Assembly: GCA_937136395.1 (NCBI GenBank)
Contig: CAKZOI010000074.1
Coordinates: 1-60,180 of the forward strand
Source of the DNA: an uncultured Opitutia bacterium
GTDB taxonomy: Bacteria > Verrucomicrobiota > Verrucomicrobiia > Opitutales > Coraliomargaritaceae
Length of the DNA: 60,180 nt
Direction of reading: 5' to 3'
In this document: positions 4,668 to 42,016 of the stretch, piece by piece
How positions within the stretch are numbered: the stretch's first letter is position 1
How the letters are laid out: each line of letters begins with the position of its first letter
The notes under the pieces: generated by a model
What the model saw: the letters and a program-made list of their open reading frames with translations, nothing else
Databases searched by the model: none
Told to the model about the DNA's origin: nothing
Translations under genes and position numbers: made by a program

Positions 4668-4767
4668 GTGCGCCAAGCCGAAAGCGCTTCGCGCTAACCG
4701 ACAACACTATAGGCTCGCGGCGAGTGCGAACGCCACAAATAACGAAACCGTGGCGTCGCCGCCTAGA

Positions 4768-4957
4768 GAGTGTCTCAAAATTGAAATTACTTTTGAGAAT
4801 TCGTGGTGAGACTCCGCAATTGTAGGTTAGGCACTCTTGCCTGACCAAATTGAGGGTGCGATGAAGCCCACAGAGGTAGTCAGACAAGAGTGTCTGACTT
4901 ACGATCAGCAATGACCCCCATAGCTTTAGTTAATCAACAGGTTTTTGAGACGTTTTC
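4768..4957 (-). repeat. 190-bp REPIN/MITE-like element, family A, copy 1
   Basis: One of three similar copies, the others being at 19299-19489 and 40213-40401. Its ends are imperfect inverted repeats (GTGTCTCAAAA at 4771 and TTTTTGAGAC at 4942). Inside are two hairpins in inverted orientation: 4826-4845 (stem GTTAGGCA/TGCCTGAC) and 4879-4898 (stem GTCAGACA/TGTCTGAC). It lies between the KATKK gene and thrC and is in reverse orientation to the other two copies. It has no coding capacity. Confidence 0.85.
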
Positions 4958-4992
4958 CTTGTGGCGGCCTAAGGGAAGCCCTTCGGTAAAAA

Positions 4993-7761: not shown

Positions 7762-7805
7762 TTATGCACGAGCAAAGCCTCGCCAAAGTTATGAATAAAC
7801 TGTAG

Positions 7806-7982
7806 GTCAGACACTCCTGTCTGACCATCCCCGCATGGCTACTGATATGGGAAAGAAATGAATTTCCACAACCGAACTTAGGTAAGGGTAGAGAATTGCT
7901 CAGAGCGAATCCCGCAGGCACGCACGAATCCATATCCGGCAAGCACTTAACACACACATTGGGTCAGGCAAGAGTGCCTGAC
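7806..7982. repeat. Family A hairpins as an inverted pair
   Basis: Two 20-bp hairpins face each other in the gap between the C92 gene and lysC. One is at 7806-7825 (stem GTCAGACA/TGTCTGAC, loop CTCC), the other at 7963-7982 (stem GTCAGGCA/TGCCTGAC, loop AGAG). The inverted pair with about 140 bases between is a REPIN-like arrangement. The sequence between the hairpins differs from that of the 190-bp elements. Confidence 0.78.
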
Positions 7983-7993
7983 CTACATTCAAA

Positions 7994-14045: not shown

Positions 14046-14201
14046 AAATACGTATCCTCATTTTGAAATCACGAAGCGATGATGGTTGCACTCAAATAAT
14101 GACAAAACCTAGAGAATTCACACGACGAATGAATGGACCAGAAGTTAAACAAAATTCTACGTAGCCGAATCGGGAACGATTTGGACGACACCGAGCCAAA
14201 C

Positions 14202-14228
14202 GAACCAAAAGTTGCCACTTTCGGCTAC
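14202..14228 (+). repeat. Family C hairpin unit
   Basis: A short unit reading GAACCAAAAGT...ACTTTCGGCTAC with stem AAAGT/ACTTT. It matches the two tandem units at 41945-42016, whose stems read AAAGC/GCTTT. It abuts the 3' end of rlmN. A direct repeat of 11 bases (CCTAGAGAATT at 14108 and 14228) brackets the surrounding 110-bp segment. Confidence 0.5.
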
Positions 14229-19090: not shown

Positions 19091-19298
19091 GGGGCTGCGT
19101 GGGGCAACGCGAGCTTACCGACTCAGCGTAGCACCGAACGCGCCACCTCCGCGAACGGTCGCCCCAGAGGGGTGGCCGCATCTTTTAAACTGTAGGTCAG
19201 GCACTCTTGCCTGAGCCAGTTGCAGGTGGGCGCAAGCAGCAGAGGTTGCCAGACCTACGGATAAAGACAGAAATCTTGCACTTCGAGGCCGTCGACAA
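19091..19298. other. Spacer with one family A hairpin
   Basis: No gene seen. It contains a family A hairpin at 19196-19215 (GTCAGGCA/TGCCTGAG, one mismatch) and a degraded partner near 19248-19258 (GCCAGACCTAC). The remainder is GC-rich with no recognised signal. Confidence 0.6.
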
Positions 19299-19489
19299 GG
19301 AGACTACTTCAAAAACCTGTTGATTAACTAATGTTCTGGGCTTCATCGCCGATCGTAAGTCAGACACTCTTGTCTGACTACCTCTGCGGGCTTCATCTCT
19401 CCGTCAACTTGGTCAGGCAAGAGTGCCTAACCTACAATTGCCGAGTCTCACCACGAATTCTCAAAAGTAATTTCAATTTTGAGACACTC
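19299..19489 (+). repeat. 190-bp REPIN/MITE-like element, family A, copy 2
   Basis: Same order as copy 3: left end with TTCAAAAACCTGTTGATTAAC, hairpin 19359-19378 (GTCAGACA/TGTCTGAC), hairpin 19412-19431 (GTCAGGCA/TGCCTAAC), then AATTTCAATTTTGAGACACTC. It lies just downstream of ugd. Confidence 0.85.
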
Positions 19490-19525
19490 GACAAGCGACG
19501 ACGCCACGAAAGATGAATTCCGAAG

Positions 19526-39863: not shown

Positions 39864-39930
39864 GGATGTCCCCCGAAACAGAGTTTCGAGGCAACGCATT
39901 TCAGTAGCCTCGGTGCTATGCACCGGGGTC
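39864..39930 (+). repeat. Family B REP-like unit downstream of the transposase
   Basis: Two adjacent hairpins: CGAAAC/GTTTCG at 39874-39888 and GGTGC/GCACC around 39912-39924. The same pair of hairpins in the same direction is found on the other side of the transposase at 40675-40743. Confidence 0.75.
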
Positions 39931-40660
39931 TTGGGATTTTCGATAGGCTGCATAACAGCGCCAAAATGCATTACTATCCCATTCATCCAAGTCAGGAAAA
40001 CCAGGCACTAGGCTACCGGCAAACGCCCACTGCTCTGCGGACTCTACCAATTCTGCACGCACTGGATTATTCTGCAAATAATTGCACGCATCCGCCAAAA
40101 AACCTTGGTCGCGTTCCTCCTCATGCAAGACGTGATCGTGCGCTTGTTTTTGACATTTGAGCGGTAAATGCGTTCGCAAAAATTTAGTCGCTTTGAGTTG
40201 ATCGCTCGACTGGAAAACGTCTCAAAACCTGTTGATTAACTAAAGCTCTGGGGGGCATTGCTGATCGTAAGTCAGACACTCTTGTCTGACTACCTCTGTG
40301 GGCTTCATCCCACCCTCAACTTGGTCAGGCAAGAGTGCCTAACCTACAATTGCGGAGTCTCACCACGAATTCTAAAAAGTAATTTCAATTTTGAAACACT
40401 CCCCCTGCGAAGCGCCAACCCAAATCAGATGAAAATGATCCGGCATCAACACATAGCGGGCACAACCGAGATGATAGCGGGCACAGGTGTGCAAAAGCGT
40501 TTCACGAAAGATGCCATGAAAGCGAGTATTCAACCAATCTTGACGTCGATCTTTGACCACATGCGTCCAGAGAACATGCGCATAGCCTTGATAAAATTCA
40601 GGTGCTAAAAGTGGTAGGCGCCGTTCATTCCACATCGTTTGAGCATGGACGAATGTAAAG
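39916..40660 (-). pseudogene. REP-associated tyrosine transposase (RAYT), split by a repeat
   Basis: Two pieces on the minus strand. The 5' piece (about 40660-40402) encodes WTHVVKDRRQDWLNTRFHG and YVLMPDHFHLIWVG, which carries the HUH motif (HFH). The 3' piece (about 40212-39916) encodes SDQLKATKFLRTHLPLKC and ACNYLQNNPVRAELVES, which contains the likely nucleophile Tyr, and ends with VPGFPDL. Joined, the two pieces make one Y1/RAYT protein. They are separated by the family A element at 40213-40401, which introduces a stop. The 5' end of the gene runs into family B repeats and its start codon is unclear. Confidence 0.85.
40213..40401 (+). repeat. 190-bp REPIN/MITE-like element, family A, copy 3 (inside RAYT)
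   Basis: Ends GACGTTTTC-type/GTCTCAAAACCTG and TTGAAACACTC. Internal hairpins are at 40271-40290 (GTCAGACA/TGTCTGAC) and 40324-40343 (GTCAGGCA/TGCCTAAC). It resembles copies 1 and 2 over its full length. The transposase reading frame is present on both sides of it but not within it. Confidence 0.88.
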
Positions 40661-40674
40661 GTTTGGCCAATAGA

Positions 40675-40806
40675 ATCTCCCCGAAACAGAGTTTCGAGGC
40701 TACACAGATGCTCAATCGTGGCCTCGGTTCTCGGAACCGGGGTGAGTGGATGTCCCCCGAAACAGAGTTTCAAGGCTACGGGACCTGAAAGAGTTTTGAG
40801 GCTACG
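40675..40806 (+). repeat. Family B REP-like units upstream of the transposase
   Basis: One complete unit at 40675-40743 (hairpins CGAAAC/GTTTCG and GGTTC/GAACC) is followed by a partial one at 40748-40778 (GAAACAGAGTTTC) and a further remnant near 40786-40806 (GAGTTTTGAGGCTACGC). All are in the same direction as the unit at 39864-39930. Confidence 0.75.
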
Positions 40807-41944: not shown

Positions 41945-42016
41945 GCTGGACCAAAAGCTTCCGCTTTCGGCTACGATTCTGCTGGACCCAAAGCTTATGC
42001 TTTGAGCTACGATGCT
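41945..42016 (+). repeat. 36-bp tandem repeat, family C hairpins
   Basis: Two 36-bp units at 41945-41980 and 41981-42016, each beginning GCTGGACC and ending with GCTACGAT plus three bases. Each contains a hairpin AAAGC-(4 nt)-GCTTT. If the thrH frame is read back to 41921, they encode two copies of an AGPKAxAxxYD repeat. A related unit with stem AAAGT/ACTTT is at 14202-14228. Confidence 0.7.

Follow-up and report, generated by a model that had tools for sequence, protein, structure and literature searches.

A REPIN-bearing, MITE-like element that probably inserted into a REP-associated tyrosine transposase gene of an uncultured Opitutia bacterium

Genes for REP-associated tyrosine transposases (RAYTs) have been described as single-copy, long-inherited and domesticated transposase genes of unknown function (PMC8049555). 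For MITEs, the definition given in PMC3733652 comprises terminal inverted repeats, lack of coding capacity and a size of 70-300 bp; the same source describes REP dimers nested in longer palindromic repeats, i.e. GTAG-15 in A. variabilis and CGTC-1 in H. neapolitanus, and in the account given there REP-free forms of these outer repeats were not found. Among insertion sequences (ISs), ISPsy8 inserts into REPs at their axis of symmetry and is flanked there by a 3-bp repeat, and ISRm22 inserts at the axis of REPs or palindromes (PMC1525189), and new insertions of IS1272 (IS1182 family) are reported to target inverted repeats of differing sequence with no duplication, older copies of it being located at inverted repeats or elsewhere (PMC5678879).

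We report here a split RAYT gene on the minus strand of the window, by which we mean the whole stretch of 60,180 nucleotides that was analysed (contig CAKZOI010000074.1 of assembly GCA_937136395.1, an uncultured Opitutia bacterium related to Coraliomargarita); its ATG is at 40635. In common with described RAYTs (TnpA-REP, NF047646; PMC2817692, PMC3733652) it has an HUH motif, a tyrosine region, a single match in its genome and GT(A/G)G-headed REPs on both sides, but it differs from these in that it is split by an insert and, by score, belongs to a divergent subfamily. The insert carries two inverted GTA(A/G)G-headed REPs within 81 bp that are members of a dispersed family, as in REPINs (PMC3116915), whereas here this REPIN is, in four places, nested in a larger element with inverted repeats of its own and a flank duplication. 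As for GTAG-15 and CGTC-1, a REP dimer thus lies inside a longer repeat and, here too, no arm-only match was present in the own genome among the matches listed; the difference is that the arms (54 and 57 bp) terminate in inverted repeats and that 3-bp repeats flank four of four copies. Our data make it very probable that a non-autonomous MITE-like element with a nested REPIN inserted into an intact RAYT gene, and that 3 bp (CAG) were duplicated in the process. The features of the gene and of the element, with their positions in the window, are:

40405..40635, minus strand: 5' part of the RAYT gene, in which the HUH (HFH) motif is located, including one copy of the 3-bp duplication (translation, profile match)
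39916..40212, minus strand: 3' part of the RAYT gene, which contains the tyrosine region and ends at the normal stop codon, including the other copy of the 3-bp duplication (translation, profile match, homologue alignment)
40213..40404, no strand assigned: inserted MITE-like element, 192 bp (repeat copies, ends)
40210..40212, no strand assigned: target duplication copy 1, CTG on the plus and CAG on the minus strand (homologue comparison)
40405..40407, no strand assigned: target duplication copy 2, CTG on the plus and CAG on the minus strand (homologue comparison)
40213..40227, plus strand: terminal inverted repeat at one end, GAAAACGTCTCAAAA
40389..40404, minus strand: terminal inverted repeat at the other end, GGGGAGTGTTTCAAAA
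40267..40347, no strand assigned: nested REPIN, 81 bp, two inverted GTA(A/G)G-headed REPs
40267..40290, plus strand: REP 1 of the nested REPIN
40324..40347, minus strand: REP 2 of the nested REPIN
4765..4956, plus strand: second copy of the element, 192 bp, flank repeat CCT, within a palindrome lying 36 bp beyond a gene that we take, from its translation, to be threonine-synthase-like
19300..19492, minus strand: third copy of the element, 193 bp, flank repeat CTT, within a palindrome lying 33 bp beyond a gene that is, judged from its translation, presumably UDP-glucose-dehydrogenase-like

The N-terminal half of the RAYT gives a stop-free translation over 40668-40402 with the HUH motif present as MPDHFHLIWVG, and the C-terminal half is open from 40212 down to the normal stop at 39916-39918 and contains ACNYLQNNPVRAELV, a tyrosine region that aligns with those of the homologues in the protein alignment and in which the catalytic tyrosine is presumably located. 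Both halves match the NCBIfam profile NF047646 (REP_Tyr_transpos) with significant E-values (4e-7 over profile positions 13-64 and 1.4e-5 over positions 106-145), at scores (30 and 25 bits) under the cut-off of 80 bits. Two intact RAYT homologues are also under this cut-off (54.7 and 47.5 bits; 1e-14 and 1.6e-12), which suggests that the RAYT studied here represents a divergent subfamily. With Pfam, the first half alone reaches E < 0.001 (19.9 bits, cut-off 23). The frame of the first half enters the element for ten codons and ends at a stop at 40372-40374, and the truncated product predicted from the ATG comprises 87 residues without the tyrosine region. The two halves have no additional stop or frameshift, and the insertion is therefore probably not very old. 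A scan of the region against Rfam gave one sub-threshold match, to mir-2366 (23.3 bits, threshold 68), which was judged to be due to chance.

The first half of the RAYT was found in 12 of 57 genomes, its own genome counted, where its one match at E ≤ 0.001 is itself; the nearest homologues over this half are those of Coraliomargarita sp. SDUM461004 (79 and 82%) and of an Opitutales MAG (78 and 79%). Seven homologous loci, two of which are duplicates, were aligned, giving five distinct proteins, i.e. Coraliomargarita sp. SDUM461004 (L030/L045), Opitutales MAG_113 (L031/L046), L032, L035 and L037 (L033, L034, L036 and L038 were left out). The insert is absent from all five, which are of the same length at the junction, and with one CAG counted the two open halves in the window align with them without any gap. 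The preliminary description had placed an element of about 190 bp at 40212-40402, had the frame resume on its far side, held that the element had entered a whole gene and asked for an alignment across the junction with an uninterrupted orthologue; this alignment bears out the reading, with the segment now measured as 192 bp (40213-40404). As judged from the sequences compared, the RAYT gene was whole before the insertion. Beyond the RAYT and its REPs, the surroundings gave no convincing alignment with those of L045 and L046.

The REPs on either side of the split gene are:

39871..39895, minus strand: REP of the RAYT's own type (..CCTCGAAACTCTGTTTCGGGG)
40679..40703, minus strand: REP of the RAYT's own type
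40755..40779, minus strand: REP of the RAYT's own type
39904..39928, plus strand: related REP, GTAGCCTCGGTGCTATGCACCGGGG
40718..40742, plus strand: related REP, GTGGCCTCGGTTCTCGGAACCGGGG

The own-type REP, GTAGCCTCGAAACTCTGTTTCGGGG (GTAGCCTCGAAA...), has six sites in the own genome, three of which are at the split RAYT, nine sites in the congener G002, where three flank the RAYT homologue on both sides, and none in G001, also a congener (≤3 mismatches). GT(A/G)G-headed REPs flank the RAYT here as well as the homologues L046 (in G002) and L045, those at both homologues having the same outer letters and changed inner stems, and this links the RAYT to the GT(A/G)GCCTCG...CGGGG type in the two relatives examined. 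On its sequence, the inserted REPIN is of a different REP family from the REPs that flank the split RAYT. The inserted family (GTAGGTTAGGCA... / GTAGGTTAGGCACTCTTGCCTGAC) has 29 sites in the own genome, 8 in G001 and 0 in G002 at ≤3 mismatches, and a reversed-pattern control for GTAGGTTAGGCACTCTTGCCTGAC gave 0 in each of the three genomes.

As regards an intact RAYT elsewhere in the genome, which the preliminary description had proposed to look for, other Y1/RAYT-type genes are present (six Pfam matches at five loci) but none is close to the split RAYT. At least two of the remaining RAYT-type genes, L010 and L013, are flanked by REPs. The former (G000:C39:86962-90237, where G000 is the own genome) has nine flanking REPs, GTAGAAGCGACACTCTTGTCGCTT, which have the same loop as the inserted family and some of which are arranged in tandem with a spacing of 60-61 bp. 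In the latter (G000:C70:56122-59343), the RAYT-like domain is part of a long open frame, behind a stretch that we take to be acyl-CoA-synthetase-like, and REPIN pairs of the GTAGGGGCTTCA type are located on both sides. A Y1 transposase gene at L011 (G000:C22:354309-357506) contains a single in-frame TGA, located after the HUH motif and before the tyrosine region, and is perhaps a second damaged gene of the Y1/RAYT class in this genome. Inspection of approximately 1.5 kb on either side of the other Y1 genes revealed no REP of the inserted family; one REP of this family with 4 mismatches (L025) lies approximately 1.6 kb from the L011 gene.

A search with the insert in its own genome gave 26 matches, far more than chance would produce, of which four (itself included) extend over 178 to 221 bases with 92-100% identity, and the other 22 comprise the REPIN core or single REPs only. 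Besides the RAYT site, the long matches are at C71:129816-130021 and, in the window, at 4768-4958 and 19312-19489. After trimming, the four copies are 192, 193, 192 and 193 bp with the flank repeats CAG, CCA, CCT and CTT, respectively, and their ends form imperfect inverted repeats around GTCTCAAAA. Two places drawn at random share a 3-bp match in 1.7% of cases, or in 4.9% when one base of slop is allowed; the element boundaries were placed by eye after the sites had been seen, so that a joint chance calculated for four such repeats would be too kind. The right end of the copy at 4765-4956 is one base shorter, the first three element bases differ between copies, and by eye the common flank letters can also be read as 4 bp (C71 copy) or as up to 8 bp (19300-19492 copy); the length of the duplication is firm at the RAYT only, because there the homologues fix it. 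The element has the properties of a MITE, i.e. terminal inverted repeats, no coding capacity, a size within 70-300 bp and a 3-bp target duplication at four of four copies (boundaries by eye, confirmed by homologues at the RAYT only). Among the 57 genomes, its own included, matches were obtained in its own genome and, as short REP pieces, in G001 only, and the composite was thus seen in its own genome alone. No match was found among plasmids, nor was one end of the element, used as an exact 19-base pattern, present in viral contigs.

The preliminary description had called the insert REPIN-like. It does carry a REPIN that is repeated elsewhere, with two inverted REPs whose GTAG-type heads point outwards and which are dispersed in many copies, but the mobile unit would be the 192-bp MITE-like element in which the 81-bp REPIN is nested, since the four copies have 192-193 bp in common, the arms outside the REPIN included. 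Folded as single-stranded DNA, the nested REPIN is predicted to form two hairpins, both in the centroid (z = -2.5; 1 of 200 shuffles as good). Comparing the four copies, 5 of 81 columns vary in the core versus 24 of 112 in the arms (Fisher p = 0.004), and 5 of 81 versus 12 of 84 when the outermost 12 and 16 columns are removed (p = 0.12). All five variable core columns are in the spacer while the two REPs have 0 of 48 (for REPs versus arms we give the counts alone), and these invariant REPs could mean that the REPIN takes part in the movement. Selection, conversion among REPINs or a late capture may each account for the low core variation. Another piece of the inserted REPIN family is located at 19188-19254 of the window, 45 bp from the element copy at 19300-19492, and two inverted REPs of the broad inserted family are found at 7802 (plus) and 7986 (minus; window 7802-7986), with no listed match to the MITE arms.

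With respect to target sites, the C71 copy is inserted at the axis of a REP and divides it in two; this REP is the second one of a REPIN of the GTAGGGGCTTCA type, a third REP family, and its intact partner is in place; 11 hairpins of this family, this partner included, were found in the 460 kb examined. Empty sites were scored for palindromes against 20,000 random places. The C71 site and the two other sites in the window are each matched by approximately 1.0 to 1.2% of the random sites, while the RAYT site, a short and imperfect palindrome, is only weakly palindromic and 24% of the random sites score as high; the mean of the four scores has p = 1.3e-4, and as boundaries and scoring were designed after seeing the sites these p-values are optimistic. 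Strict patterns for the palindromes at the two other window copies gave no member in the own genome. When the pairing between an element's own flanks was tested, p was 0.80 for the inverted-repeat elements of G001 (n = 15; own flanks pair no better than swapped flanks of other copies), 0.04 for G000 (n = 4) and 0.12 for all 20. The proposal that all four full copies lie in palindromic targets was rejected on account of the score at the RAYT site and the pairing test in G001. Three of the four sites in the own genome suggest that the element may prefer the axes of hairpins or REPs. IS1397 is also said to insert at the axis of REPs or palindromes. The C71 copy resembles ISPsy8 in having a 3-bp repeat at the axis of a REP, but the element, unlike these axis-targeting ISs, codes for nothing. 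It differs from IS1272 as well, which makes no duplication, in its 3-bp duplications, and its target is palindromic at three of four sites in the own genome but not at the RAYT. Moreover, in contrast to the IS1182/IS1272 type, no gene was found in the three genomes of the genus with DUF772, a domain that we take to mark IS1182-type transposases.

The congener G001 has a family of inverted-repeat elements without a REPIN, the ends of which are like GGAAACTGTCTCAAAA (loci L093, L096, L098, L099, L104, L107, L109 and L111-L126). There are 18 matches, and in most of these the inner ends CTGTCTC and GAGACAG enclose 143-147 bp; 15 of the 18 have the end pair at ≤5 mismatches, two of these being 118 bp, and several contain CGGCTAC..GTAGCCG as an internal inverted repeat. 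In many of their flanks a GTAGGGC..CGCTT motif can be seen by eye, which may either belong to the element as its outer portion or be a REP into which the element inserted. Also by eye, the flanks of the copies at 4765-4956 and 19300-19492 in the window resemble each other and the outer ends of the G001 elements, and the element at these two sites could hence be longer than 192 bp. A short GTAGGGC..GCCCTAC palindrome was not found in 153,632 bases of G001 loci, except for one REP of another family, and a hairpin rule flagged 0 of 33 GTAGGGC sites in 400 kb of G001, two of which look like imperfect hairpins by eye. The consensus of these two gave three matches in G001 at ≤9 mismatches versus none for the reversed control, of which one is independent as the other two had built the consensus, and eight versus four at 10 mismatches; in G000 the corresponding numbers were two versus two (9 mismatches) and six versus six (10 mismatches). 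The evidence for unoccupied GTAGGGC hairpins in G001 is thus thin.

Taken together, a mechanism can be proposed in which an element of 192-193 bp with ends around GTCTCAAAA would have inserted into the intact RAYT gene with duplication of CAG. The insertion would have split the enzyme between the HUH motif and the tyrosine region, and its activity would be lost. Ends that are common to all copies, inverted repeats and short direct repeats are the traces expected of a DDE transposase that acts in trans; from the presence of all three we infer that the whole composite, with the REPIN as a passenger, was moved as a MITE by a DDE-type IS transposase supplied in trans. An autonomous parent IS with the same ends was not found: matching end pairs at 600-3000 bp were absent from the stretches and loci searched, which are a minor part of the genome, and in five loci with rve, presumably IS3-type transposase genes, no pair of matching ends was present, single weak internal matches being obtained in L147 and L148 only.

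Alternatively, a RAYT might have moved the whole unit by recognising the hairpins of the nested REPIN and carrying the arms along in single-stranded, IS200/IS605-like form. We regard this as unlikely: the invariance of the two nested REPs in the four copies and the presence of REP-flanked RAYT-type genes in the genome would fit, but the copies have inverted-repeat outer ends, arms of 54-57 bp and 3-bp flank repeats in common, the REPIN cores without arms elsewhere indicate that the REPIN also exists as a separate unit, and, to our knowledge, IS200-type enzymes do not leave target duplications. Given a 192-bp unit with terminal inverted repeats and a 3-bp duplication, a RAYT most likely did not move the element. 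It had been suggested that an element here kills a transposase of the class that moves such elements. The RAYT is indeed split, but it is most likely not the mover, and because the nested REPIN and the REPs at the RAYT are of different families the element probably did not kill a mover of its own.

Recombination, such as gene conversion or an ectopic exchange involving a short REP-like site, as the source of the insert appears highly improbable, even though there is a short imperfect palindrome at the RAYT site and the likeness between the flanks of the two other window copies is what exchange could leave. At the RAYT site the insert is flanked by ordinary RAYT coding sequence that is common to the homologues, and a 3-bp duplication would not be expected from gene conversion. 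An assembly error that joined the RAYT halves through a repeat deserves mention as the element is present in four copies and the genome is a draft of 106 contigs; both flanks, however, match the same gene, are correctly ordered and oriented and have a CAG in common, the RAYT's own type of REP is present on either side, and there is no second match to the first half in the genome, which together make such an error exceedingly unlikely. That the segment is a conserved spacer or an in-frame part of this RAYT subfamily, as would be the case had the orthologues carried it, is virtually impossible: it is refuted by its absence from all five distinct proteins aligned, it introduces a stop codon, and near-identical DNA is present at three other places in the genome.

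Returning to the insertion of a MITE-like element moved in trans, one can go further and picture a REPIN that captured, or was captured by, a MITE homing on the axes of REPs or hairpins, and which now spreads by means of a DDE transposase instead of a RAYT, invades sites that belong to other REP families and, in one such family, has inactivated the RAYT. Such competition between REP systems with a change of vehicle is a speculative and rather doubtful extension.

As far as the literature was searched, the parts seen here are known but their combination is new, with a MITE-like element that carries a REPIN interrupting a RAYT associated with a different REP family: in titles and the openings of abstracts, from a literature that lacks most subscription papers, we found no earlier description of a RAYT gene interrupted by an element with a REPIN. 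The case shows clearly how a gene of one family of mobile DNA is disabled by a member of another, and it does not represent a new kind of system. The clean loss of a RAYT beside RAYT-type genes of other REP families amounts to a natural knock-out, and a comparison of sister strains that carry or lack the insertion would reveal whether the loss of its RAYT leads to the decay of a REP family; furthermore, the nested REPIN suggests that REPINs can change vehicle. Finally, GTAGC-headed hairpins with other stems (GTAGCCGAATCG.., GTAGCCGAAAGT.., GTAGCCGAAAGC.. and GTAGCTCAAAGC..) are present at 14161-14228 and 41951-42010 of the window, hinting at more REP families in this genome.
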